NCBI RefSeq assembly: GCF_014905115.1
Contig: NZ_CP041235.1
Coordinates: 1,240,001 to 1,304,000, forward strand
From: Sulfurimonas sediminis
Lineage (GTDB): Bacteria; Campylobacterota; Campylobacteria; Campylobacterales; Sulfurimonadaceae
DNA: 64,000 bases
Direction: 5' to 3'
Below are positions 1 through 12,553 of this stretch, piece after piece. The position numbers and the translations under genes are program-made. Position 1 is the first letter of the stretch. Every line of letters starts with the position of its first letter. The notes under the pieces were generated by a model. That model did not search any database. It worked only from the letters and a program-made list of their open reading frames with translations, and had not been told where the DNA came from.

Positions 1-1331
1 TCTGGCAAAAATGCTACTGCAATACGCTTTGCAATAAGCTCATATGCCTCTTTAATCTTTGGAAGTTTTTGTTTTTCCCAAGTCTGAATATCTGTCTCTG
101 TTGGAATTTTTGCGGTAAGTGATAAGGGGGTGTGATTTTGTTTAGCAGCTTTTTTGTCGTTAAACAGATATGTTTTGTCGCTAAACTCTGTCTTAATTTG
201 AAAATATGCAGATGCTGTTTGAAGTGCATCGGCTACCTCTTCTTTATCTGCAAGTGCAAAGTATCTACCATTTGTACCTGGATAAGTTGTAAATCCTTCT
301 TGCCTAAGATAATCTAAAATTTCATTACACTCTCCGTAAGAGATTTTATATTTTCCCATCATCTCACTTGCAAAATCTGAACCACTAAGCGGTAAAGGTC
401 TGTTTTTTGTGGATGAAGTTGATGTTTGCATCTTCTCAACGATACAAGTTGTCTCTTTCATATCTTCAATAATTTTATCAACTTGCTCTTTTTTATAGTA
501 GTTTCTTTGCTTCTCCTGCTTCACGATAGGATTTCCATCTTTATCAAAATCATCCACATCTTGATAGTAAAAATGTGAAAGTTCAAGCTCTCCCTTAATA
601 CCCTTTACTTGCCAAAACTCTTTTGGTTGAAAGTTTTTTATCTCATTTTCTCTGTTTCCAATTAAAGAGATAATAACTGATTTGACTCTTCCAGTATAAA
701 ATGGCTTATTATAGTTATCTGTAAGCGTTTTTGTAATTTTCATCCCTGTAATATAATCAGCGATTGAACGGGCTTGTTGAGATGCATACAACCTTTGAAA
801 CTTATCATCATCGTATGCTTTTAACTCTCGCATAGCTTTTTGAATAGAGTCTTTTGCTTTAAAAGATCCTGTGTTCCATAACCTTTTTATGGATACTGAT
901 ATATCAGGATTGATTTTAAAAATCATATCCCTTCCGATTGCTTCCCCCTCGCCATCTGCATCAGTGGCGATAATAATCTCTTTGAGATCATCTCTACTAA
1001 GCTGCTCTTTAATTATCTCTCTTTGACGCTCTTTATAGCTGTCTGAAGTAGGGATAGATCTGATTTCATCTCTCATATTCTCCATTTTATACTCATCTGG
1101 AGTTTGAAGTTTTTGATAGAGTCCATAACTTGGATTGATCTCTTTTGGTTTTATTTGAGAAAAAAGATGTCCTGCCGCCCAGGTAAAGATATATTTGTCT
1201 CCCTCGATATATCCTTGTCTTTTCCCTAAATCTGCAAGCTTTTGTGCATCTGAACCTAAAGTTGCATCACCAAGTGTTGCTGCCATATCAGATGCAGCCT
1301 CTCTTTTTTCGGTTAATATTAAAGTTTTCAT
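1..1331 (-). CDS. Type IA DNA topoisomerase (TopB-like), 3' part off the window
   Basis: Reading from ATG 1331 leftwards gives about 443 residues with no stop before the window edge, so the C-terminus is missing. It starts MKTLILTEKREAASDMAATL, a TOPRIM first strand with its glutamate. The acidic TOPRIM motif is ATDADGEGEAIG near residues 120-135, and the active-site tyrosine is in TTYPGTNGRYFA (Tyr350, codon 282-284). Families of this type normally show DREGEA and YPRTDS-like sequences, so the arginine in each motif is replaced here. Enzymes of this kind relax or decatenate DNA and are common cargo of conjugative elements. A good ribosome site (AAAGGAG) precedes the ATG, 28 bp after the relaxase stop, so it lies at the end of the mobilization operon. 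The family call is solid; whether it is TopA-like or TopB-like is less sure. Confidence 0.85.
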   Translation of the reverse strand, partial: MKTLILTEKREAASDMAATLGDATLGSDAQKLADLGKRQGYIEGDKYIFTWAAGHLFSQIKPKEINPSYGLYQKLQTPDEYKMENMRDEIRSIPTSDSYKERQREIIKEQLSRDDLKEIIIATDADGEGEAIGRDMIFKINPDISVSIKRLWNTGSFKAKDSIQKAMRELKAYDDDKFQRLYASQQARSIADYITGMKITKTLTDNYNKPFYTGRVKSVIISLIGNRENEIKNFQPKEFWQVKGIKGELELSHFYYQDVDDFDKDGNPIVKQEKQRNYYKKEQVDKIIEDMKETTCIVEKMQTSTSSTKNRPLPLSGSDFASEMMGKYKISYGECNEILDYLRQEGFTTYPGTNGRYFALADKEEVADALQTASAYFQIKTEFSDKTYLFNDKKAAKQNHTPLSLTAKIPTETDIQTWEKQKLPKIKEAYELIAKRIAVAFLP

Positions 1332-1358
1332 AGCTGTTTCTCCTTTAAAGTTTGAGCC

Positions 1359-3091
1359 TTATTTTGATCTGTCATTTTCGACCTCCTTTGTTTTGTTTTG
1401 TGGCTTCATCTTATATTCATAATTTCTCTCAATTTTTTTCTCTTGAGCTTTTAGAATGTGTGCAGTTCTTCTAAGTGAAGCTGTTTTATTGAGTTGTCTA
1501 ATAACTCTTTGATTTTGGCGAATAGTTTTTAGATCTTTTTGAGTATTGTAGATTGCTTTAGAAGTTGTCTTTAGAGTTTTCCATGCGATTTGGGCTGATA
1601 ATTTGAGTGTAAATTTTGTGGTAGCAAATGCAAGTGATAAGCCAAATGCTATAAATTTCTCCTCTGTTGTTCGTGGACGAAATGCACGATATGTTTTTTT
1701 AATATCTTTTGCAAACCTTGATGCTATACTGTAGGGCTTTAAAAATTTCTCAGGAGTATAATCACTTATTTTTGCCCACTTATTCATCCATTTATCCACC
1801 TCTTTTGAGTATCCACTTATGCCTTTTATGGTTTTACTTGGCATAGACTGATCTACTAATTTGTCAAGATGTTTTGTACCCTCAAATGAGTCTTTATATT
1901 TTAAAAACTCTTCACGACTTACTACTAATTTATAACTGCTTCCCTCTTTTTTTACTAAGCCTTTAGATTTAAGTTGTTCAAGTCGTGCAACCTGTAAAGT
2001 AATATTTGCTTTAATAGCACTAAGAGGGATATACTCTTGCTTTAATGCTTTTGCCATCGCCTTATCTGGATCAAGCTCACCATGTTGCAAAAGTGTGGAG
2101 TCGATAATCTCAACTTTTGTTTTTTGTTCTATTCTTTTTAGTCTCTCCAGCTCTGTAAAATTTGATTGTATTTTTATCGTTTTTTGTAGCTTGTCATCAA
2201 ATATCGTTTTATTGTTAAAAATCTTTTTATTCTCCTGATAGAGTTTGTTTTTTTGCTCTCTAATCCCTTTGAGATCTTGGTAGAGTTCACTTTTTTTCTC
2301 TTGTAAATCTACAGACTTTGTTGCATTTTCTATAATGGAATTTCTAAGCTCCTCATATTTTTCTAAATCAATAATATAGTTGTTGTTGCCCAAAGGAGTT
2401 GCTATACCTTTTGCTGCAAGAGACTTTAATCTTCCCTCAACTCTTTTTCTCCAATAATCTTTATTTTTTTTACTCATTTTGCTTTTTCTGAGATCATGCT
2501 CAAAAACGCTTCCACCCAAAGTTACCTGTCTTTTTATTTACATGTTTTAAAATAAACTCATCTGCTTTTTGAGTACCTGTGTAGTTTCCTTTTTTGTATT
2601 TTTCATCTATTGACTTTGTGCGTTTTTTGTTTTGTTCAATGACTGCCTCTTTCTCTTTCTCATCTTTGGTATATTTGAGTTCAATGGCATCTAATGTATT
2701 CATCCATTTTTTACCTTTTGCACCTTTTTGAATTGCTTTTTTTGAACCCATATAAACTATGTGTATATGTTTGTTTGTTCCATCTTCGTTTTGATGGATT
2801 GCAACTAAATAGTCTAGTTTTTTCTCCTGCTTGTTTACTTCTGGCATCTACAATATCTTGTGCCATTTTATGCATCTCTTCTTCTGTTAAATTATCGGTT
2901 TGAGGATTATAAATTCTTACATCGTTTGCTTCAAACATCTTAGTCATTTTGTAAGCTGTTTTGTTGTCTATTTTTTTACCCTCTGCATTATATAAATGCC
3001 TGATTTGCATATCATCTGCTTTGCCATTTCCTTTTTCAAGATACTCCAAAGTTTTTGCGATATTAGTTGATCGCTGCGTTTTTTCAATCAT
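1359..3091 (-). pseudogene. Conjugative relaxase (HUH type) with two 1-nt frameshifts
   Basis: Three overlapping frames together form one relaxase. The first runs from 3091 to about 2823 and ends in QAGEK. The second resumes with LDYLVAIHQNEDG and holds the metal-binding histidine motif NKHIHIVYMG, then ends at GWKRF plus TGA (2500-2502). The third continues EHDLRKSKMSKK to the stop at 1359. The joins fall on homopolymers: a run of six (2818-2823) and a run of five (2502-2506). Removing one base from each leaves 1731 nt, exactly 577 codons, which supports one ancestral gene. Relaxases nick oriT and pilot the DNA strand. The start overlaps the upstream RHH gene by 8 nt. The C-terminal half is lysine-rich and helical. 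Alternatives are sequencing error, a genuine split into separate proteins (ATG 2477 could start the third piece), or frameshifted translation. Confidence 0.78.
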
Positions 3092-3500
3092 CCTTTCTCT
3101 CCTCTTTTTGAGGAGTAATATTTTGATCTATTTTTTCATCTGTGTAATGCTTTTGCAATAGTGCAACACTATTTCTCCAAGCAATATTTTTTGCTTTAAT
3201 AGCATCTTCTTTGTTTCCAATATTTACACCATGGAATATAGTAATCTGTTCTCGTGCCGCAATGGTATAGAGTGTATTTTTTGCCAATAGTGAGTTGTAT
3301 CTATGCAACTCTTTTGTAAGTAAGTTTTCTATATTTTCAAGCCGTTTATCCATAGCTGAGAGATGATCGCTAAACATCCCATTGATATACTTTGTAAGTG
3401 CATCTCGTATCACTTCACTTTTTGTTGTTTTGTTGATCCTTGCAAGCTCTTCTATTGCAAAATGGATACTATCATCCACTAAAATATTGATATGTGCCAT
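3084..3500 (-). CDS. Ribbon-helix-helix relaxosome accessory protein (MobC-like role)
   Basis: This 138-residue protein opens with MAHINILVDDSIHFAIEELA followed by RINKTTKSEVIRDALTKYI, a textbook ribbon-helix-helix fold: a short beta strand and two helices that bind DNA as a dimer. The rest is a predicted helical segment with a leucine-rich heptad pattern around residues 45-70. A strong ribosome site (AGGAGG) sits just before the ATG. The stop overlaps the relaxase start by 8 nt, so the two are probably translationally coupled. By position next to a relaxase and a noncoding region, the likely job is to bind oriT and help load the relaxase, and perhaps to repress its own promoter. Assignment to a named Mob family is not possible from sequence alone. 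Confidence 0.75.
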   Translation of the reverse strand: MAHINILVDDSIHFAIEELARINKTTKSEVIRDALTKYINGMFSDHLSAMDKRLENIENLLTKELHRYNSLLAKNTLYTIAAREQITIFHGVNIGNKEDAIKAKNIAWRNSVALLQKHYTDEKIDQNITPQKEERKDD

Positions 3501-3770
3501 CTATTACCTCCTAAACACCTATTTATCTATATTCATAAAAAGGTGTAATATAAAAAAAGAGAGGTGATAATATGCATCTATCCCCAAATCTGCAAGATTT
3601 GACCCGCCCCATACTATGTGGCTGACTTGCAAGATAAAAAAGTTCGCTTTTTTATCTGCTCTTCGTCGTGCTTCGCACTCCGCTCTTTGGTTCTTAGGAG
3701 AAAAGTCGTTCTGAGATTTTTTGGTGAAATTATGAATATATATGAAACCAAAATATAAGGAGTTATTGCT
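3501..3770. other. Divergent intergenic region, candidate oriT
   Basis: No gene of useful size is seen in these 270 bases. The region separates the leftward relaxase genes from the rightward RHH/coupling-protein genes, the usual place for an origin of transfer. It holds a perfect inverted repeat, gataaaaaag at 3633-3642 and cttttttatc at 3647-3656 with loop ttcg. A second small inverted repeat is aaatct at 3586-3591 and agattt at 3595-3600, and the palindrome cttgcaag lies at 3627-3634. A tiny reading frame (atg 3733) ends next to the ribosome site of the following gene. The nick site cannot be placed by eye. Promoters for both gene sets should also be here. Confidence 0.5.
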
Positions 3771-4022
3771 ATGGCAATTATAGATAATGTACTCAAGAAG
3801 TACATGACAAAGACATCTACAAAGAGATGTAATGTGAGTATTAAGTTGGATGCAAATTTGTGTGATAATTTAACCATAATTTGTACCACACTTGGTATTA
3901 CAAAAAGTAAGTTAATCGCAGATATTGTTGAGGCATCTGGAGTCTCTAAAAAAGCTCAAGATTTGAAATCAAAATCAGATACAAGAGAGAAAAGTATTAA
4001 GGAGAGTGATTATGTCTCGTAA
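3771..4022 (+). CDS. Small RHH-like protein of the mobile element
   Basis: An 83-residue basic protein with the segment STKRCNVSIKLDANLCDNL and then GITKSKLIADIVEASGVS, which fits a beta strand followed by helices as in ribbon-helix-helix DNA binders. The C-terminus is a charged lysine/serine tail. The ribosome site AAGGAG stands about 8 nt before the ATG. Its end overlaps the next gene's start at 4012. By position, first in the rightward operon beside the candidate oriT, it may regulate that promoter or act in the relaxosome. The fold call rests on pattern only and no named family is recognised. Confidence 0.6.
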   Translation: MAIIDNVLKKYMTKTSTKRCNVSIKLDANLCDNLTIICTTLGITKSKLIADIVEASGVSKKAQDLKSKSDTREKSIKESDYVS

Positions 4023-4467
4023 AGCTTTGCATGATGATTGGATATTTCGTGCATCAGAAAATATAACAACAAACCTTAAAATGGAGTACAAGGCATATCT
4101 ACTTTATGCTTTAATTATAGGCTCACCTTTAATCCTCTCAATGATAGCATATTTTACTCTAAAATATATGACATACAGAGAGTTGATTATGCAACGCATC
4201 GCAGTGCAAAATTTCAACTGGATTGATGGTTCTTTTTTAGTCTATTTCGCAGTTGGAATTGCACTTACTTATGTAATGCAACTTGTCTTTGGAAGAAAAA
4301 TCTATAACTATGCACTTGAGGAAAATAAACGCATCCTCAGTGATGAGTATGTAAGAGGTGCAAAGTTTGTATGTATTGATGAGTTTAATCATCAATTTGC
4401 AGATACAGCAGATGATGAGATGATAAAAATACAAATCGTTGAAGAAAAATGTGACAGAGAGTTCTAA
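4012..4467 (+). CDS. Membrane half of a split type IV coupling protein (TraD N-terminal-like)
   Basis: This protein has two clear membrane segments, about residues 25-50 (YLLYALIIGSPLILSMIAYF) and 75-95 (FLVYFAVGIALTYVMQLVF). A cytoplasmic part follows with RILSDEYVRGAKFV. That RGxxxV element is typical of the stretch between the membrane anchor and the ATPase domain of TraD/VirD4 coupling proteins. The adjacent gene starts exactly where such an ATPase domain would start. I chose ATG 4012 (MSRKALHDD) because AAGGAG lies 7 nt upstream; an ATG two codons earlier has no site. It should anchor the ATPase at the inner membrane. The TraD link is inferred from layout plus the RG element. Confidence 0.6.
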   Translation: MSRKALHDDWIFRASENITTNLKMEYKAYLLYALIIGSPLILSMIAYFTLKYMTYRELIMQRIAVQNFNWIDGSFLVYFAVGIALTYVMQLVFGRKIYNYALEENKRILSDEYVRGAKFVCIDEFNHQFADTADDEMIKIQIVEEKCDREF

Positions 4468-4474
4468 ACTCTCT
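4456..4474. promoter_or_regulatory. Perfect hairpin around the stop codon of the coupling-protein membrane gene
   Basis: The arms agagagtt (4456-4463) and aactctct (4467-4474) are fully complementary, with loop cta. The TAA stop (4465-4467) lies in the loop and the first base of the second arm. No T-tract follows, so it is unlikely to be a strong terminator. It could limit read-through or set the ratio of the two split coupling-protein subunits. Confidence 0.5.
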
Positions 4475-4500
4475 CCCTAAAAACCAAAAAAAGGATAACT

Positions 4501-5805
4501 ATGAAAACAACATTACAATTTCCAAAAAATGCTACAAAGCAACATATAGGATATATCGGCACTACAGGTGCAGGAAAAACACAAGGTTTGATGCAACTTT
4601 TTGATAACTTTGAGGACTCAAAAAAAATTCTCATTGATGTTAAAGGTGATTATACGGCAACACGCAAAAAAGAGGATGATCTCATCTTTTGTCCATATGA
4701 TAAGCGTACTATTGGATGGAATATCTTTAATGATATAAAGACATACTTAGATATTGACAATATTGTAGCTGCTCTTATACCAGATAATCCAAAGACAACG
4801 GACTCTTACTTTGATAATGCGGCACGAAGTGTACTCAAAGGTATTTTTATCTACCTCTCCAAAGAAGAGGGTGTAGATAATGCCAGCTTGTGGGATGTGG
4901 TTACTTCACCTGATTTGATTTTACATATCGTAAGAAATGATAAAGAGGCATGCTCATATATGGAGATGCACCTTGGCAAAGAGGAAGAGCTAGATAAACA
5001 AGCTAAAAGTGTACTTGGTACAATGCTTGCACATATAGGAGTTACACTTGAAGCACTTTCAAAAATTGATGGCGATTTTTCCTTTAAAGAGTGGACAAAA
5101 TCAGAGAAAGATAAAAGAAGTATCTTTTTACTTGGTGAAGAGAGTGTTTTAACTTCACTATTGCCACTTTATCGTGTTGCAGTAGAGATTGTTGCAAGTG
5201 AGCTATTGTCGATGCCAGATGATACTACAGGCAAGCGTGAACTCTTTTTTTGGCTTGATGAACTTCCAAAGCTTAAAAAAGTAAGCAAAGTTATAGATCT
5301 TATGACACTTGCTCGTTCAAAAGGTGGTCGTGTTATCTATTCTATTCAAACACTTAAACAACTTTCAGAAGTATATGGAAAAGAGGGAATGTACACTATT
5401 TTAGATACTTCAAACACGCTCTTTATTTTTAGAACGACCGATGCAAATGAGCTTGAAAATATTCTGGGAAAACAAGAAGTCCTGGAGTATTCAGAGTCAA
5501 GAACTTGGGGGCCACATGATATGCGTGATGGTGGTAGCCACTCTAAGCAGAAAAAGACAAAACCACTTGTACTGGCATCTGATATTCAAAGACTCGAAAA
5601 TCTTGAGTTTTATATCAAATCTATTGCTCCTGACATCACAAAAGCAAAATTACAATATATTGGGCGAGAAGAGAGAAATCCTAAGTTTGTACCAAATATT
5701 GAACAGATCCAAAAAAGAAGTGTTGATGATGAAGATAGTGAAGCTAATGAAAGTGAAAACAGAGTCTCAGCAGATGATTTTATGGATGATATAAGCTCCC
5801 TTTAG
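4501..5805 (+). CDS. Type IV coupling protein ATPase domain (TraD/VirD4-like)
   Basis: A 434-residue protein beginning almost directly with the P-loop, IGYIGTTGAGKTQG near residue 20, then the strand ILIDVKGDYT. Walker B is LFFWLDELPKL near residue 255, followed by LMTLARSKGGRVIYSIQTLKQL, the helix and sensor region of TraD-like ATPases. The C-terminus is acidic and low in complexity. It has no membrane segment of its own, unlike most coupling proteins, and the preceding gene supplies one. Such proteins deliver the relaxase-DNA complex to the type IV secretion channel. The ribosome site AAAGGA precedes the ATG. A secretion apparatus is not in the window and may lie to the left. Confidence 0.88.
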   Translation: MKTTLQFPKNATKQHIGYIGTTGAGKTQGLMQLFDNFEDSKKILIDVKGDYTATRKKEDDLIFCPYDKRTIGWNIFNDIKTYLDIDNIVAALIPDNPKTTDSYFDNAARSVLKGIFIYLSKEEGVDNASLWDVVTSPDLILHIVRNDKEACSYMEMHLGKEEELDKQAKSVLGTMLAHIGVTLEALSKIDGDFSFKEWTKSEKDKRSIFLLGEESVLTSLLPLYRVAVEIVASELLSMPDDTTGKRELFFWLDELPKLKKVSKVIDLMTLARSKGGRVIYSIQTLKQLSEVYGKEGMYTILDTSNTLFIFRTTDANELENILGKQEVLEYSESRTWGPHDMRDGGSHSKQKKTKPLVLASDIQRLENLEFYIKSIAPDITKAKLQYIGREERNPKFVPNIEQIQKRSVDDEDSEANESENRVSADDFMDDISSL

Positions 5806-5816
5806 TTTAAGGGGAG
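5796..5816 (+). terminator. Hairpin at the end of the coupling-protein operon
   Basis: The arms ctccctt and aaggggag pair with a one-base bulge around a loop that contains the TAG stop (5803-5805). Only a weak AT stretch follows, so this is a possible but not convincing terminator. It repeats the layout seen at the upstream gene, a stop codon inside a hairpin loop. Confidence 0.4.
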
Positions 5817-5924
5817 TAGTATAAAAGGACAAGTGGACTCCCTAAAATGAAATTCAATAAAGAGTTTCAAATATTAATTCCAAATCCAAAAAAAGAGTTC
5901 ATGGGAGCCCACATCTCCTTTTAA

Positions 5925-6035
5925 TTATCCAAGATGAGCTACATAAGCCACAAAACCCCAAACTAACATTACCTTCCAAAATAACTGATTTGTAAGTAAC
6001 ATTCCAAACATTTCGCCAAATAAAAAGTTTAACAT
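5925..6035 (-). CDS. 36-residue hydrophobic membrane protein
   Basis: Minus-strand ATG 6035 gives MLNFLFGEMFGMLLTNQLFW and continues KVMLVWGFVAYVAHLG before TAA at 5925. Nearly the whole peptide is hydrophobic with one likely membrane helix (KVMLVWGFVAYVAHL). A good ribosome site, taaggag, lies 6 nt before the ATG, which is the main reason to believe it. It is too short for usual gene callers. The function is unknown. Neighbours are the coupling-protein operon, convergent on its left, and a divergent small HTH gene on its right, so both may be controlled from 6036-6143. It might be a toxin-like peptide or an accessory transfer protein. Confidence 0.5.
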   Translation of the reverse strand: MLNFLFGEMFGMLLTNQLFWKVMLVWGFVAYVAHLG

Positions 6036-6143
6036 CTCGTACTCCTTAGTTTATATACATATATTATAACTATATCTATATAATAAAATGCTTAAATTAA
6101 ATATATTTATGCTATATTTATAAAAAGTTTTTTTGGAATAATA

Positions 6144-6350
6144 ATGAGAATATGGAATAAAATATTTAAAGATAGTGAATTAGCAGAACACTTAAAAGTT
6201 AGCCTACAGGCAGTACGCCAGTACCCTAAAGATAAACTGGAATTGATGAGACTTGGATTTGCATGTAAAAAACTGGAGATTGATTTTGAAGAGTTGTTGC
6301 AGATAGAAAAAGATAAAAACTCTCTCCCTAAACACCATAAAGATATATAA
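6144..6350 (+). CDS. Small helix-turn-helix protein
   Basis: This 68-residue protein has the segment DSELAEHLKVSLQAVRQYPK, which reads as a helix-turn-helix: LAEHLKVS as the first helix and turn, LQAVRQYPKDK as the recognition helix. It resembles small Cro/CI-like or phage regulators. The remainder (LELMRLGFACKKLEIDFEEL) is helical. It lies alone between two short membrane-protein genes on the opposite strand. It could regulate element genes or respond to host conditions. The start is the only ATG in frame; the upstream ribosome site is weak (ttttttggaataat). Confidence 0.6.
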   Translation: MRIWNKIFKDSELAEHLKVSLQAVRQYPKDKLELMRLGFACKKLEIDFEELLQIEKDKNSLPKHHKDI

Positions 6351-6440
6351 AAACTATCAGATAACACTGATAACCAAGATAACTCCTATTTTAGGGGTAC
6401 TTAGGGAATAGTGAATATTCAGATTACTCCAGACAACTAC

Positions 6441-6554
6441 CTATCTACCCTTATATGGACTATATTTTGAATAACCATTTTCATATCTATACTTGCCAAT
6501 AGCAATAATTGTGATAATGAGTGTAAATGTACCTAATATCAAATTAAATATCAT
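6441..6554 (-). CDS. 37-residue single-pass membrane protein
   Basis: Minus-strand ATG 6554 gives MIFNLILGTFTLIITIIAIG followed by the polar tail KYRYENGYSKYSPYKGR and TAG at 6441. The first half is a near-perfect membrane helix and the tail is basic and tyrosine-rich. The ribosome site GGAGGA lies 7 nt upstream. It begins 19 nt after the stop of the GNAT-like gene on the same strand, so the three genes integrase, GNAT-like protein and this peptide form one tight run. The function is unknown; small proteins of this shape include toxins and membrane-complex modulators. Confidence 0.5.
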   Translation of the reverse strand: MIFNLILGTFTLIITIIAIGKYRYENGYSKYSPYKGR

Positions 6555-6573
6555 TTTATAAATCCTCCAAATT

Positions 6574-7293
6574 TTATTTCATATACAAACTAAATATAAA
6601 AATTATCCAACTGCCAATTAAATACTTCCATAACTTATTTGTTTTATCCTCTAATTCAGTATTTATTTTCCAGCAGTTTTCTTTTGATTTTTCTAAACCT
6701 GTAATTGTATTTTTTAAATTATACTTCTCTTCAAACATATTGCTCAACTCGTGTGTAAAATCAACTTCTTCGATTCCATCAATGACATTTTTAATTTTCA
6801 AGCTATCAATTTTATCAATAAAAAAGCTATCATCGTTAATATTAAAACCAACATTTCTATACAGCTTGTCTCGTCTCTTAAAGTTCTCTTCATATGCATC
6901 TACTGGTGAAAGAAATCCACTTAACGAGTATTCAGGAATATATTGTTTAGCAATTAATAGTAGCTGATTAATAGCTATTGTTCCAACTCCATAAGATCTG
7001 TATTGAGGTTGAATCATAATACTATTTTCAAATGTGCAAGCATTATCGAAAGAAGATCTTATTTTCCAAGAATTTCCTTGTCTATTTAAGCTATTTCTTT
7101 CACACCTACCACTTGAGTTCACGACAAATAAGTATTTAATTATCATTGAAATATCTATATTTCGATGATTTTCATTCATACTTGCATAATCAACAACAGT
7201 ATATTCTATTTCTAATGAAAAATATAATCTTTCTCCCTCTTTCCTTTTAGAAGAATAATATTTTTTCTCTTTAAAACTTTTTACTTTTTCCAT
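6574..7293 (-). CDS. GNAT-like acetyltransferase with C-terminal membrane tail
   Basis: A 239-residue protein. Around residues 90-110, SIMIQPQYRSYGVGTIAINQ matches the GNAT acetyl-CoA-binding motif A (beta strand, then Q/R-x-x-G-x-G and a helix). KLYRNVGFN near residue 145 matches the family's closing tyrosine/GF strand. The last 15 residues (LIGSWIIFIFSLYMK) form a membrane helix preceded by a charged helical stretch, which is unusual for the family. The gene follows the integrase by 8 nt on the same strand and is probably co-transcribed. The substrate cannot be guessed. A toxin or modifying enzyme carried as cargo is possible. Assignment rests on two motifs only. Confidence 0.55.
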   Translation of the reverse strand: MEKVKSFKEKKYYSSKRKEGERLYFSLEIEYTVVDYASMNENHRNIDISMIIKYLFVVNSSGRCERNSLNRQGNSWKIRSSFDNACTFENSIMIQPQYRSYGVGTIAINQLLLIAKQYIPEYSLSGFLSPVDAYEENFKRRDKLYRNVGFNINDDSFFIDKIDSLKIKNVIDGIEEVDFTHELSNMFEEKYNLKNTITGLEKSKENCWKINTELEDKTNKLWKYLIGSWIIFIFSLYMK

Positions 7294-7301
7294 TATATAA
7301 T

Positions 7302-8609
7302 CTATCCAAGTATTTCTAATACTTTTTTCAACTCCTCTTTTGATTTGTTTGGAAATAATTTCTCTAATTCTTCTAATTTATCTTGCTCATTTTGCTTGGC
7401 AACTGGTTTTTCATCAAATATATCATCCAACATTTCATCTAAAGTATCACCAAAAACTTTATAGAATAATTGACCATAAACAGCATCCGTTATAGTTTTA
7501 TTTTGCTTGTGCCCTAAAATTGCTCCAGCAATTACATTATCAGTTATTCTCATCTTATTTTTTAAATAAACAACTATACAATTTCTAATTTGATGCTTAA
7601 CTATTGAAGTATTAAGTTTCTTCCAGTGATCATGTAGAGTACTTGCACTATAAGGTTTACTTTTGTCTTTTTCTTGAGTAAATACATATCCATTCTCCTT
7701 AATACCAATACTCTCAAGCATCTCTTTAAGTCTATGAGAAAGCTTATATGTCATGTCTTTATTTGCTTTGTTTTTTTCTTTTGGAATTAAGTATGTATTA
7801 TTTTTAAAATCAATCTCATGCCACTCAAGGGTTAAAACTTCATTTAATCTTCTGCCATGCATCAAAAACATAAAGATTTCTCTTGCAGGTGTAATCCTGT
7901 ACGATTTTAATTTTTTAAAAAGGAGTTTAATCTCTTCAAGCTCCAAATCTAAACCTCTCTGATTATTTAATGGAGACAGATCTCTTTGAAGAGCGGGAGA
8001 TGATATTTCATTACCAAACTTTTTAGCTTTCATATTAAAATACTTAAACACAGGATTAGTAAATTGATATACTTTTCTTGATGTTCTTTCTGATCTTCCT
8101 GCCTTCTTAATATTTATAACAGCATTTTGAATATCTTCCTCGTCAATCTCTCCTATGGGCTTATTTAAAATAGACTGTAGCCATTTATTATGAAAACTCT
8201 CTCTTTCTTTATAATCAAATTCCCCTTTATCGTCTCTATGTTTATATTGATCTATCTTATACTGGATATATTTTTCAAAAACATCTTTATATAACATTGT
8301 TTTTGAAAATTCTTCTTGATTTATTTTGTAAGAAGATAAATTATCCATCATCTGTTCATATTTTTTAGCTGCTTTTTTGACAGCATTGAGTAATGTTTCT
8401 GAGGGTGAAAAATCTAATGTTTTCTTTTTTGGTAAAATCTTACCATTAATCATTTTACTAGCTCTTACTTGTATTTTATAAGGCTTAGTAAAAGTTATAT
8501 TTGAATTAATTATTTTATTGTTTTTTATTTTACTTGATGGTATCTGCCCATCATTTTTATAGTATAATCCGCTTGTATTAACTTTTTTAAGATCAAACCT
8601 CAAGAACAT
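7302..8609 (-). CDS. Tyrosine recombinase (phage-type integrase)
   Basis: A 435-residue protein with all the core catalytic residues of tyrosine recombinases: Arg253 in MHGRRLNEVL, His339-x-x-Arg342 in KHQIRN, His367 in GHKQ and the nucleophile Tyr378 in DAVYGQ. Residues 1-90 look like an arm-binding domain and 90-210 like the SAM-like core-binding domain (LYKDVFEKYIQYKID...). It ends with a lysine-rich helical tail. The ribosome site GGAG stands 7 nt before the ATG. The gene lies next to a tRNA-Leu 3' fragment at 8761-8817, as expected for an enzyme that integrates the element to its left into a tRNA gene. No excisionase is recognised. Confidence 0.93.
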   Translation of the reverse strand: MFLRFDLKKVNTSGLYYKNDGQIPSSKIKNNKIINSNITFTKPYKIQVRASKMINGKILPKKKTLDFSPSETLLNAVKKAAKKYEQMMDNLSSYKINQEEFSKTMLYKDVFEKYIQYKIDQYKHRDDKGEFDYKERESFHNKWLQSILNKPIGEIDEEDIQNAVINIKKAGRSERTSRKVYQFTNPVFKYFNMKAKKFGNEISSPALQRDLSPLNNQRGLDLELEEIKLLFKKLKSYRITPAREIFMFLMHGRRLNEVLTLEWHEIDFKNNTYLIPKEKNKANKDMTYKLSHRLKEMLESIGIKENGYVFTQEKDKSKPYSASTLHDHWKKLNTSIVKHQIRNCIVVYLKNKMRITDNVIAGAILGHKQNKTITDAVYGQLFYKVFGDTLDEMLDDIFDEKPVAKQNEQDKLEELEKLFPNKSKEELKKVLEILG

Positions 8610-8760
8610 ATCGCAACTCCATAAAAGTACATAACTTGGTACACAACTAACTATATTTTGGTGTGTTTATTATATCTAACTATACCTAATATGCTTGTAT
8701 GACATGCCCTTGTTTACTTTAGTCATGTACAATTATGACCACAATAACTAAAATGGTATC

Positions 8761-8817
8761 TGGATTCAAAATCCGCCGCCTCACGGCTTAGGGGTTCAAA
8801 TCCCCTCTCTGGTACCA
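8761..8817 (+). repeat. tRNA-Leu(CAA) 3' fragment: element attachment site (att)
   Basis: The sequence contains the tRNA anticodon loop TTCAAAA (CAA at 8767-8769), a short leucine-type variable arm (ccg...cgg), the T arm (8790-8806, five base pairs around TTCAAAT) and the acceptor 3' strand CTCTGGT with discriminator A and CCA (8807-8817). No D arm and no matching 5' acceptor strand (ACCAGAG) is found upstream, so this is not a working tRNA. It is the duplicated 3' end left at the far end of an element inserted into tRNA-Leu. The intact tRNA should lie left of the window in the same orientation. Confidence 0.8.
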
Positions 8818-8855
8818 CTTTTTACAGTTGTTAGTTCTCAAAATGAGAGATACTT

Positions 8856-9731
8856 ATGTTATTTCTAAAAATCATTCTTCTACTCATCTCTTTTTCAACT
8901 ATTTTCGCTGCCAACACTCTTCAAAGCAATTATTTTATAAAAAATGACTTTATTATGCTTTCAGATATTGTATCTGTAAATAAAGAAAATGATAGAAAAC
9001 TTTTTGATATAGATAAAAACAGACATTCAAAACGCATACAAAAAAAAGAACTGTTAAAAATACTTCACAAAAACGGTTTTGACAATTTTACTTCAAAACA
9101 CAGTTACATACAGTTCACAAAAAGAAGCCCTATCGATACAACATTTATAAAAAACAGTATAAAAAAACACTATACAAAAAAATATAAAAATATAAAAATA
9201 TCTGAAATAACGCTCTTTCCCACACATTATATGGAAGAACTTCCAAAACGCTACACTGTTCATTTTAACACAAAAGCACACTTGTCCAACAAGGGCATTT
9301 TATATATAAAAACAGATAATAATAAAAAAATATTTTTTAAATATAAAATTTTAGCCACTGTTTCCATTTTGTTTGCCAGAAAAAACATCAAAAAAGATAA
9401 TGAACTCACCAATGTAAATACACAAAAAAAGAGTATAATACTAGATAAATTCAAAGCAATGCCCTTACAGGGTTTACATGTAAAGCACTACCAGAGTAAG
9501 CACAACATCAAAGCAGATGATGTTATAACAAAAAGAGATGTTGTTGGTTTGTTTTTAGTCAAACGCGGCTCGAGTGTCAGTGTTAATTTTAACAACAATG
9601 CAATACATATCTATTTTTCTGCAAAAGCACTTCAAAACGGAAGACTTGGAGACACTGTCAGTGTCATAAAGAGAAATGGGAAAAAAATAAGAGTTGTTAT
9701 AACCGGAAAGAACAAAGCAGAGGTACAATGA
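8856..9731 (+). CDS. flgA: Flagellar P-ring assembly chaperone FlgA
   Basis: A 291-residue protein with an N-terminal signal peptide (MLFLKIILLLISFSTIFAAN). The C-terminal third shows the SAF/FlgA pattern: DVVGLFLVKRGSSVSVNFNN, then ALQNGRLGDTVSVIKRNGKK and a final VVITGKNKAEVQ. FlgA is a periplasmic chaperone for FlgI during P-ring assembly. It is longer than the roughly 220 residues of enterobacterial FlgA and keeps extra N-terminal sequence, which is usual in Campylobacterota. It is the first chromosomal gene after the attachment site, and its stop overlaps the ubiX start (ATGA). Confidence 0.88.
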   Translation: MLFLKIILLLISFSTIFAANTLQSNYFIKNDFIMLSDIVSVNKENDRKLFDIDKNRHSKRIQKKELLKILHKNGFDNFTSKHSYIQFTKRSPIDTTFIKNSIKKHYTKKYKNIKISEITLFPTHYMEELPKRYTVHFNTKAHLSNKGILYIKTDNNKKIFFKYKILATVSILFARKNIKKDNELTNVNTQKKSIILDKFKAMPLQGLHVKHYQSKHNIKADDVITKRDVVGLFLVKRGSSVSVNFNNNAIHIYFSAKALQNGRLGDTVSVIKRNGKKIRVVITGKNKAEVQ

Positions 9732-10270
9732 AAAAAAGAAAAATAGTAGTTGCAAGCAGTGGGGCCAGTGGTGTGAATCTTGGTCTGAAAATCATTCAAC
9801 TTCTTCCTGAATCTGTTGAAAAACATTTTATCATGACAGAAAACTCAGAAAAAGTACTTGTACATGAAATGAGTAATGTGACTGCCCATAACAATAAAAA
9901 CATTGCAGCCTCTGTTGCATCCGGCTCTTTTGGGGTTGATGCTATGATTATCGCACCGTGTTCTATGAATACGCTGGCAAAAATAGCCTGTGGAATTTCG
10001 GACAACTTGATTACACGATGTGCTGCAGTTGTTATTAAGGAGCAAAAAAAGCTTATTTTAGCACCAAGAGAGATGCCTTTTTCGGCTATTAATTTAGAAA
10101 ATATGCATAAACTTGCGAGTCTGGGCATTATTATTGCACCGCCCGTCATGGCATATTATTCAAAGCAGCAGACACTTGATGAAATGGAGAATTTTCTCAT
10201 TGGCAAGTGGTTTGATTTGCTAAACATTGAAAACAGTTTATATAAAAGGTGGCAAATTGAAGAGTCGTAA
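9728..10270 (+). CDS. ubiX: Flavin prenyltransferase UbiX
   Basis: A 180-residue flavoprotein with the N-terminal phosphate-binding strand IVVASSGASGVNLG, IIAPCSMNTLAKIACGISDNL in the middle, and the conserved end LAPREMPFSAINLENM followed by GIIIAPPVMAYYS. UbiX attaches a dimethylallyl group to FMN to make the cofactor used by UbiD decarboxylases. Length is normal. It overlaps flgA by 4 nt and its end overlaps the start of coaD, so flgA-ubiX-coaD-tmk read as one operon. Confidence 0.93.
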   Translation: MKKRKIVVASSGASGVNLGLKIIQLLPESVEKHFIMTENSEKVLVHEMSNVTAHNNKNIAASVASGSFGVDAMIIAPCSMNTLAKIACGISDNLITRCAAVVIKEQKKLILAPREMPFSAINLENMHKLASLGIIIAPPVMAYYSKQQTLDEMENFLIGKWFDLLNIENSLYKRWQIEES

Positions 10271-10739
10271 CATCGCTTTATACCCAGGAACATTTGATCC
10301 CATAACAAATGGGCATTTTGATATTATCGAACGTGCAAAAAATTTATTTGATGAAGTTATTGTAGCTGTTGCAGAGTCAAAAGATAAAACCCCAATGTTT
10401 CCTCTAGAACAAAGAATAAAAATGGTTGAAATAGCTGTTAAAGATATCAAAGGTGTCCGTGTTGCAGGCTTTGACAATCTTACTATAGATCTGGCACATG
10501 AGCATGATGCAAGGGTGCTTATACGAGGGCTTCGTGCTGTAAGTGACTTTGAGTATGAGTTGCAACTCGGCTATCTCAATAACTCTCTTGATGAAAACAT
10601 AGAAACAGTCTATTTGATGCCAAAACTCAAGCATGCTTTTATTAGTTCTTCTATTGTTAGAAACCTTTTGAAGTTTAACGGAAAAACGGAGCACCTTTTA
10701 CCAAAAGAAGTACAGCAGATCATTGGGAGTCTGCGCTGA
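10257..10739 (+). CDS. coaD: Phosphopantetheine adenylyltransferase
   Basis: The nucleotidyltransferase signature IALYPGTFDPITNGH is followed by LIRGLRAVSDFEYELQL and FISSSIVRNL, all typical of CoaD, which makes dephospho-CoA in the fourth step of CoA synthesis. I place the start at TTG 10257 (MKSRNIALYPG...): aaaagg lies 8 nt upstream and the protein then has the usual N-terminus of about 160 residues. An ATG at 10227 would add ten residues and a longer overlap with ubiX. The chosen start overlaps ubiX by 14 nt, and the stop overlaps the tmk ATG (TGATG). Confidence 0.92.
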   Translation: MKSRNIALYPGTFDPITNGHFDIIERAKNLFDEVIVAVAESKDKTPMFPLEQRIKMVEIAVKDIKGVRVAGFDNLTIDLAHEHDARVLIRGLRAVSDFEYELQLGYLNNSLDENIETVYLMPKLKHAFISSSIVRNLLKFNGKTEHLLPKEVQQIIGSLR

Positions 10740-11332
10740 TGTATATTGCAATAGAGGGTATTGATACAGCTGGAAAAAGTACACAAATAGAAGCACTGAA
10801 AAAGCATTTTCCTGACGCAGTCATCACAAAAGAACCCGGTGGAACCACCATAGGGCAAGAAATTCGCAAACTTGTTTTAAGTGCAAAAACACAAAGCAAA
10901 AGAGCAGAGTTTCTTCTTTTTCTTGCAGACAGGGCTGAGCATATAAAAGAGGTGATAGAACCAAACCTACACAAAATGATTATTTCAGACAGAAGTGCTG
11001 TAAGTGGTGTCGCCTATGCGCTCACCCAGGGAAATATCAGTAAAAAAGATTTGATCAGTCTGAATGATTTCGCAACAAAAAAAATATATCCTCAGACAAT
11101 CTATTTGCTGCGTCTGACAAAGCAGGAACTCGAACATAGACTTTCGCAAAAAGAGCTTGATGGTATTGAGCTTAGAGGCAGTGAATACTTGTTAGAGATT
11201 CAAGAGAGTATCAAAGAAGCAAGTCTTCTTCTGGGTGTGCCATTGATTGAAATTGATGCCACAAAAAACAGAGATGAAATCACAAAAGAAATATTAAATA
11301 ATATTAAAAATGAAACAATGCTAAAAGGATAA
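10739..11332 (+). CDS. tmk: Thymidylate kinase
   Basis: A 197-residue P-loop kinase. It has IEGIDTAGKSTQIEAL at residues 4-19, the DR motif in ISDRSAVSGVAYAL, and the EPGGT substrate-binding segment near residue 32. Tmk phosphorylates dTMP to dTDP. The arginine that usually follows the P-loop glycine is replaced in GIDTAGKS by alanine-glycine, as seen in several Campylobacterota. It overlaps coaD by one base and is followed 6 nt later by hisS. Confidence 0.95.
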   Translation: MYIAIEGIDTAGKSTQIEALKKHFPDAVITKEPGGTTIGQEIRKLVLSAKTQSKRAEFLLFLADRAEHIKEVIEPNLHKMIISDRSAVSGVAYALTQGNISKKDLISLNDFATKKIYPQTIYLLRLTKQELEHRLSQKELDGIELRGSEYLLEIQESIKEASLLLGVPLIEIDATKNRDEITKEILNNIKNETMLKG

Positions 11333-11338
11333 AGAATT

Positions 11339-12553
11339 ATGATTAAATCACTAAGAGGTATGAATGATATACTTGATGAAAACGAATCAAAACGATTTAC
11401 TTATTTTTTGGATGTGGCACAAAACATTGCCAGAAGATATGGTTTTCACTATATAGAAACACCACTGTTAGAAGAGACGGCGCTTTTTAAACGCAGTGTC
11501 GGAGAGAGTAGTGACATTGTCGGTAAAGAGATGTACCAGTTTATTGATAAGGGAAACAATGATGTATGTTTGCGTCCTGAAGGAACAGCTGGTGTTGTGC
11601 GAGCTTTTATCCAAAAAAAATTAGACAAAGCAGGCGGAATCCACAGGTTTTTTTATCATGGTCCTATGTTTCGTTATGAAAGGCCACAAAAAGGACGCTT
11701 AAGAGAGTTCCATCAGTTTGGCGTTGAAAGTTTCGGTATTGAGAGTGTGTATGAAGATGCAAATATGATCATGATGGTCAGTGATATACTCAAAGAACTT
11801 GGTATCGGCTATAGGTTACAAATTAATTCACTTGGGGACAACAACTGCATGCCTCAGTACCGTGACACCCTTGTCTCTTATATAGAAAGTATTGAAGATG
11901 AAATTTGTGAAGACTGTAAACGAAGAAAAAGTACGAATCCCATCCGTGTTCTTGACTGTAAAAATGAAAAGTGTCAATCTTTATACGAAAATGCTCCAAA
12001 ACTTTTACATTCACTATGCGAAAGCTGTGATAATGACTTTGAAAAACTGAAAAAAATACTTGATGCAAATGACATCAGCTATGAAGTAGATACGAATCTT
12101 GTACGAGGACTTGACTACTACTCCAAAACCGCTTTTGAATTTGTCAGTGACAATATAGGCAGTCAGAGTGCTATTGCCGGTGGTGGAAGATATGACAGAC
12201 TTGTAGAATTTTTAGATGGTCGCCCTACTCCTGCTGTAGGTTTTGCGATGGGCATTGAAAGACTGTTGGAACTTATACAGATGCCACAGGAATCAAGAGA
12301 AGGATATTATCTCGGTGCTATGGATGAAGAAGCTGTAGATACAATAATCACACTAACGCATAAAAAAAGAGCGACAGACAAAGCCGTTTGTGAGTACAAA
12401 GCAAAAAACCTCAAAAACCATCTCAAAGGTGCCGATAAAATGAATGCAAAATACTGCTGCGTTATCGGTACAAACGAAATGAGTGAGGGAATAATTTGGG
12501 TTAAAGATTTGGAAAAGAAAACTGAAAAGACAATTTTTCTCAAAGATTTCTAG
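11339..12553 (+). CDS. hisS: Histidyl-tRNA synthetase
   Basis: A 404-residue class II synthetase. It shows motif 2 (VCLRPEGTAGVVRAFI, then FYHGPMFRYERPQKGRLREF), the histidine-binding loops (GRYDRLVEF preceded by GGG) and motif 3 (GFAMGIERLLELI). The C-terminal anticodon domain is present. A cluster of four cysteines between residues 185 and 235 (EDCKRRK, DCKNEKCQ, CESC) resembles a small zinc-binding insert and is worth noting. The ribosome site AAAGGA precedes the ATG. The next gene begins directly after its stop. Confidence 0.96.
   Translation: MIKSLRGMNDILDENESKRFTYFLDVAQNIARRYGFHYIETPLLEETALFKRSVGESSDIVGKEMYQFIDKGNNDVCLRPEGTAGVVRAFIQKKLDKAGGIHRFFYHGPMFRYERPQKGRLREFHQFGVESFGIESVYEDANMIMMVSDILKELGIGYRLQINSLGDNNCMPQYRDTLVSYIESIEDEICEDCKRRKSTNPIRVLDCKNEKCQSLYENAPKLLHSLCESCDNDFEKLKKILDANDISYEVDTNLVRGLDYYSKTAFEFVSDNIGSQSAIAGGGRYDRLVEFLDGRPTPAVGFAMGIERLLELIQMPQESREGYYLGAMDEEAVDTIITLTHKKRATDKAVCEYKAKNLKNHLKGADKMNAKYCCVIGTNEMSEGIIWVKDLEKKTEKTIFLKDF

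Follow-up and report, generated by a model that had tools for sequence, protein, structure and literature searches.

A TrwB/TraD-type coupling protein in Sulfurimonas sediminis, probably divided between a membrane gene and a motor gene

Gene organization of the locus

The DNA analyzed here, referred to as the window, is a stretch of 64,000 nucleotides from Sulfurimonas sediminis (NZ_CP041235.1, positions 1,240,001 to 1,304,000 of the forward strand). Close to its start, a gene for a small membrane protein is followed by a gene for an ATPase (Table 1). A sequence-only reading of this region had proposed that the two genes together make one TraD-like coupling protein that has been stably split. 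Consistent with that description, both genes were found as open reading frames. A hydropathy scan predicts two helices in the membrane gene and none in the ATPase, and the P-loop is at residue 20 of the ATPase. The ATPase gene also has a ribosome site and a start of its own. The end of the membrane gene had been placed just past the motif RGAKFV, but the protein continues for another 31 residues, from V120 to F151.

The membrane and ATPase genes are in the same reading frame and are separated by one TAA and 11 sense codons. Because the frame is shared, readthrough of the stop and a nonsense mutation are rival explanations that need a test.

Table 1. Features at the left end of the window. Positions are those of the window.
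Feature	Position	Strand	Remarks
Relaxase-like gene, in three reading frames	1359-3091	-	identified by tblastn against L031
Ribbon-helix-helix protein (CopG type)	3084-3500	-	RHH_1 E 1.7e-4, 21.9 bits against a cut-off of 20.5
Small gene, RepB / ribbon-helix-helix-like	3771-4022	+	83 aa; overlaps the start of the membrane gene by 11 nt
Membrane gene (putative membrane subunit)	4012-4467	+	151 aa from ATG; two predicted membrane helices
Perfect 8-bp hairpin around the first stop	4456-4474	+	no function claimed
Junction, 33 nt	4468-4500	+	ribosome site AAGGA at 4491-4495; in frame with both genes
ATPase gene (putative motor subunit)	4501-5805	+	434 aa from ATG; TrwB/TraD-type coupling ATPase without membrane part
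Walker A, GTTGAGKT	4558-4581	+	residues 20-27 of the ATPase
Tyrosine recombinase (integrase)	7302-8609	-	PF00589 E 3.4e-10

Family assignment of the ATPase

Residues 4-381 of the ATPase match PF10412 (E 2.2e-73), and TraG-D_C is matched with an E of 3.1e-20. It also matches the F-type TraD equivalog (TraD_Ftype, NCBIfam TIGR02759; E 2.2e-60), at 205 bits, which does not reach the cut-off of 521. Residues 6-397 align with the TrwB structure 1e9r (E 6e-30). We also used profile A3, built from an 11-row alignment that includes the window pair. Its positions 165-572 match residues 39-434 of 1e9r (E 3.1e-54), which is all of the cytosolic portion of a coupling protein (T4CP) of known structure. Its nucleotide-binding domain, the Walker A motif, PF10412 and the cytosolic alignment place the ATPase among the coupling proteins of TrwB/TraD type. 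An N-terminal membrane domain (TMD) is not part of the same polypeptide. The ATPase is helix-free, and a stop, a ribosome site and an ATG intervene between it and the membrane gene, with two stops in the Sulfurimonas relative described below.

The split is shared with two other loci

Two further loci carry this particular split, which makes three in total, two of them near-identical. One is in the Sulfurimonas MAG S012_93 (G624; locus L031) and is the one relative found in a scan of genome contigs. Its ATPase and membrane gene are 99% and 92% identical to those of the window. The other is on pHRV44, an F-type plasmid of Nitrosophilus labii (L032), where the identities are 55% and 33%, respectively. 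In the N. labii genome, the split ATPase is the sole match at E <= 0.001. The pHRV44 membrane gene and ATPase gene (NIL_RS10430 and NIL_RS10425) encode 149 and 427 aa, and the published transcriptome of N. labii HRV44 does not cover plasmid genes (available part of PMC11539149). The window, L031 and pHRV44 have in common the order of a small regulator-like gene, the membrane gene and the ATPase gene. Viral contigs scanned with profiles A2 and A3 gave no relatives. Genes annotated as TraC, TraV, TraH and TraN are present on pHRV44. The plasmid has F-type transfer genes, yet is typed as non-mobilizable in PLSDB.

Comparison of the window with L031 gave a dN/dS of 0.195 for the membrane gene (13 nonsynonymous and 15 synonymous changes) and 0.023 for the ATPase over 359 codons (6 nonsynonymous, 59 synonymous). 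These values indicate that both genes are under purifying selection. As the split recurs in L031 and pHRV44 and both parts appear to be under such selection, the comparison indicates that it is old. This agrees with the proposal of a stable split rather than a fresh mutation.

Leaky or programmed readthrough of the TAA would yield a full-length protein and make the split only apparent, with the shared frame and the hairpin serving that purpose. The two genes are in one frame in all three loci, and a hairpin encloses the stop in two of them. However, readthrough is very unlikely because L031 has two in-frame stops between the genes, the second being a TAA in the spacer at a place matching the window's junction. 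The spacers are also unequal in length, 33 nt in the window and L031 and 12 nt (4 codons) in pHRV44. In pHRV44, AAGGAG lies right behind the stop and is followed by the ATG. Together with the AAGGA or AAGGAG ahead of each ATPase ATG, these features disfavor readthrough.

The sequence-only reading had given weight to the hairpin around the first stop. Its perfect stem, 8 bp with a 3-nt loop, is present as described, but it is unremarkable in the window and no matching hairpin is found at the pHRV44 junction. The window holds 27 perfect 8-bp stems with loops of 3-8 nt, this one among them, compared to 7-17 in ten first-order Markov simulations. The window overall is thus somewhat rich in such stems. 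Folding of the 76-nt junction gave a z of -1.84, and 10 of 200 shuffles folded as well. Seven of the eight stem pairs are kept in L031. A functional role of the hairpin is unsupported, given the common stem type, the modest fold z and the pHRV44 junction. Part of the hairpin's second arm is included in a 16-base exact repeat, AAACTCTCTCCCTAAA, at 4466-4481 and 6317-6332. The second copy is close to where a small ORF (6144-6350) ends.

The neighborhood and the state of this copy

The small gene upstream of the membrane gene is 44.6% identical to its pHRV44 homologue and has a dN/dS of 0.48 against L031. The pHRV44 homologue passes the RepB-RCR_reg cut-off (22.2 against 21 bits), whereas the window protein is below it (14.5). 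Its position suggests that this small gene may belong to the relaxosome. The ribbon-helix-helix gene adjoins the relaxase-like gene and has a homologue in L031 (dN/dS 0.167).

The relaxase-like gene of the window is broken. Its pieces at 3091-2819, 2820-2503 and 2534-1845 are in frames -3, -1 and -2, and are 61-67% identical to the L031 protein (tblastn). In L031, the gene is a single open frame, 430 aa long up to the contig edge, where it is cut off. No curated cut-off was passed by the window pieces, or by the L031 protein in Pfam, and the best PDB match had an E of 0.55. The L031 protein has no match in PLSDB, pHRV44 included. We presume from the motif HxxxDGxNKHxH that these are relaxases, and the name 'relaxase-like' rests on that motif.

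PF11130, PF03135 and the pHRV44 TraC all lack a match in the genome (2.32 Mb, single contig). The PF11130 model does see TraC of this type, since it confirms the pHRV44 TraC with 124 bits against a cut-off of 28.1. With the relaxase-like gene broken and TraC/VirB4 not found, function in this strain is doubtful, and this copy is probably not self-sufficient.

The same two observations, and the single stop between genes in one frame, would fit a recent nonsense mutation that broke a single traD and left the pair as a pseudogene on a decaying element. We consider this highly improbable. The identical break is present in L031 and also in pHRV44, where the ATPase is 55% identical. The dN/dS is far under 1 in both parts, and a ribosome site precedes the ATPase start in all three loci.

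To the left of the window (L071 9639-19331) are genes for a topoisomerase (PF01131, 1.2e-64), an ArdC-like protein (PF08401, 2.1e-10) and a C5 cytosine methylase (PF00145, 1.3e-48), and the element may extend leftward beyond the window. Its ends were not found. A comparison of window positions 5806-9000 with the 18 kb to the left and with window positions 1-12000 gave no att repeats at plausible ends; exact repeats of at least 14 bases amounted to three pairs (16, 14 and 14 bases). No tRNA is present in window positions 1-12000. The most plausible reading of the locus is an integrated mobilizable element, or what remains of one.

The membrane gene corresponds to the N-terminus of fused proteins

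The membrane gene passed no family cut-off, and its best match in the PDB had an E of only about 1. We made a profile, A1, of the three stand-alone membrane proteins (window, L031, pHRV44). In 397 genomes of the phylum, A1 gave eight matches, which are two stand-alone genes, four fused N-termini and two others. Both stand-alone genes (window and N. labii) directly precede an ATPase gene. The two others (E 3e-4 and 9e-4) are proteins of unrelated appearance.

Across all loci gathered, A1 matches the N-termini of 10 fused TraD-like ORFs with iE from 7e-18 to 2e-6. The match covers about residues 13-145, and the ATPase match then begins at 164-181. These 10 ORFs, and no others, make up the fused part of the 13-row tree clade that contains the window protein (support 100/98). 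Outside this clade, A1 matches only weakly (L058, 0.0019; L033, 0.079). In alignment A3, the fused forms have DDxxFE opposite CDREF and IPRI opposite FPKNA. The split point is in a linker of variable length. AlphaFold2 prediction of the read-through pair from a two-row alignment (window and L031) gave a mean pLDDT of 30.1 and a pTM of 0.21, too low for the model to be of use.

These matches indicate homology between the membrane gene and the TMD plus the start of the linker in fused TraD-like coupling proteins. Full-length TraD-like proteins are covered from one end to the other by the two genes, which are colinear with them in the order TMD, linker, motor. This bears out the proposal that the pair corresponds to one such protein. 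A fused homologue with only a frameshift-type difference would have spoken against a stable split. No such form was found; L062, which among fused proteins is closest in the tree, is only 32% identical.

Alternatively, the membrane protein could do a separate job, with the ATPase functioning without a membrane anchor. Certain T4CPs lacking a TMD do transfer their plasmids (PMC7434980, in the part available). For the membrane protein TraI of pIP501, the role as an anchor is likewise called proposed or likely and is still putative in the available portions of PMC12857230 and PMC13037476. However, fused T4CPs have an N-terminus homologous to the membrane gene, and wherever this sequence was found, it is either joined to the ATPase or immediately ahead of it. 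As a stand-alone gene it occurs only beside its ATPase in the 397 genomes, and we regard a separate function as improbable.

A degraded remnant of the same ATPase is found in G090, which belongs to the same family as N. labii (L012 1474-1863, minus strand; 55% identity over residues 267-373). No A1 match is present in this 3.3-kb locus.

Coupling proteins have been split more than once

As the sequence-only reading had suggested, related elements were searched for fused and split forms. Both were found, on one tree. The sample consists of the loci of the best matches listed and comprises 38 different T4CP-like ORFs that match the ATPase profile at E <= 1e-12. Twenty-nine of these are fused: within its first 170 residues, each has one or more predicted helices ahead of or close to the P-loop. 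This number includes L033, one of five plasmid proteins that come from other phyla and are each encoded by a single CDS (597-700 aa). Of the remaining ORFs, L021 is cut by a contig end and L012 is a fragment. In five ORFs the P-loop is at most 60 residues from an intact start: those of the window, L031 and N. labii, L005 (G190), and L042 7905-9158, which is a second coupling-protein copy in G096.

In L005 the membrane and ATPase genes overlap (ATGCTAAGTAA). Its membrane gene matches fused N-termini with an E of 0.0012 (two-sequence profile, no filters) and an hhalign probability of 24%. The L042 copy is a weaker case because no homology to fused N-termini was detected in the genes upstream of it. 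The row at L042 7232-9158 comprises a 130-aa hydrophobic gene, a 95-aa gene and the ATPase, and neighbors overlap by 4 nt.

The last two of the 38, L024 and L026, are VirD4-type ATPases. Each comes after a separate gene of 177 or 185 aa with four predicted helices, and the first part of this gene is matched by the N-terminal end of L020, a fused protein (6e-15). These matches indicate that a VirD4-type split also exists in Campylobacterota. At L073 1732-4010 and L074 1275-3557 (minus strand), VirD4-type ATPases without N-terminal helices come after a separate four-helix gene homologous to the L020 N-terminus. In L025 and L029, the four-helix membrane gene is present too and the ATPase ORF is in two pieces.

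The tree has 30 rows. L012, L014, L015, L016, L017, L021, L024, L026, L028, L045, L046 and L058 were omitted as fragments or too distant, and the plasmid proteins L067-L070 were added. Three changes are forced by its starred branches. The clade of the window, L031 and pHRV44 without the fused L062 has a support of 96/78 in this tree and 92/76.6 in a 29-row tree, and is not starred. AU tests were performed on 29 rows, omitting L013, the longest branch. A single origin of all five split TraD-type ORFs was rejected (p 0.0001), as were groupings of the window clade with L005 (0.0038) and with the L042 copy (2.6e-5), while a grouping of L005 with the L042 copy was not (0.096); these p-values are weakened because the groups were chosen after viewing the 30-row tree. 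Since the last grouping is not rejected, we count at least two TraD-type fissions among the Campylobacterota proteins examined. There were probably three.

Two TraD-type coupling proteins of different tree clades, about 4-11 kb apart, are present in five genomes: G044:C181 (L004, L043), G219:C106 (L044), G096:C1 (L042), G702:C255 (L054, L060) and G630:C216 (L055, L061).

Comparison with known systems

The window pair resembles TrwB of R388 and TraD of F (PF10412) in the order TMD, linker, motor. Unlike them, it consists of two polypeptides, its TMD is a separate 151-aa gene, and it is under the F-type TraD cut-off. T4CPs lacking a TMD are a recognized subfamily, and some pair with a small membrane protein (PMC7434980; available part of PMC7431656). 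The window ATPase, helix-free and beside a small membrane protein gene, shows this arrangement. In TraJ/TraI of pIP501, an ATPase without TMD is likewise found beside a small membrane protein that is its proposed anchor (same sources). Compared by description, the window pair differs in that it is from Campylobacterota, is of TraD type, and has a partner traceable to the N-terminus of a fused T4CP. The TraG-J pairs (PMC7434980) also combine a T4CP with a neighboring membrane protein, but there the T4CP itself is a membrane protein, while the window ATPase has no predicted helix. MobB of CloDF13 is also a T4CP on a mobilizable element; in the part of PMC7431656 available, it is described as a single protein whose TMD is required for mobilization, unlike the window pair.

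Among the matches listed in our literature search, which mostly covered literature outside subscription, none describes a split TraD-type T4CP or a partner derived from the T4CP itself. The available parts of PMC3864950 and PMC2653234 report no split T4CP; in the Rickettsia paper, one of these two, the split gene is virB6d. The pairing of TMD-less T4CPs with a small membrane protein is thus already known from pIP501 TraJ/TraI. What is new is the evidence from sequence comparison suggesting that the coupling protein's own N-terminus gave rise to the membrane partner.

A model for the split coupling protein

We propose that the pair encodes two subunits, membrane and motor, of a single TrwB/TraD-type T4CP and that both genes derive from one ancestral gene by fission (probability about 0.86). 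The proposal draws on sequence comparisons, which support the homology of both halves, their colinearity, the conserved split, purifying selection, and separate ribosome sites and starts. The break would have occurred in the linker that joins the second membrane helix to the nucleotide-binding domain. The two genes follow each other in an operon-like row, have separate start signals and are likely to be co-transcribed. The 151-aa protein would anchor the ATPase in trans at the type IV secretion channel and bring it into contact with the channel; in fused T4CPs, the TMD plays this part (PMC7434980, in the part available). Together the two subunits would form a VirD4-like complex, with the ATPase moving relaxase-bound DNA. 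The window pair would need a helper, or else is part of a remnant.

More tentatively, and with considerable doubt, the linker may be a recurrent fission point of T4CPs and the membrane domain a separable adaptor that is exchangeable between elements. A working TraJ-TMD/TrwB chimera favors exchange (available part of PMC7431656), whereas pED208 TraD with the NTD of pKM101 TraJ lost transfer (available part of PMC10939261), which disfavors it. If the idea is correct, exchange could adapt a motor, along with its relaxosome, to various secretion channels. The fused and split forms on one tree constitute a natural experiment on the role of the membrane domain, and pHRV44 provides a ready pair for probing anchoring in trans.
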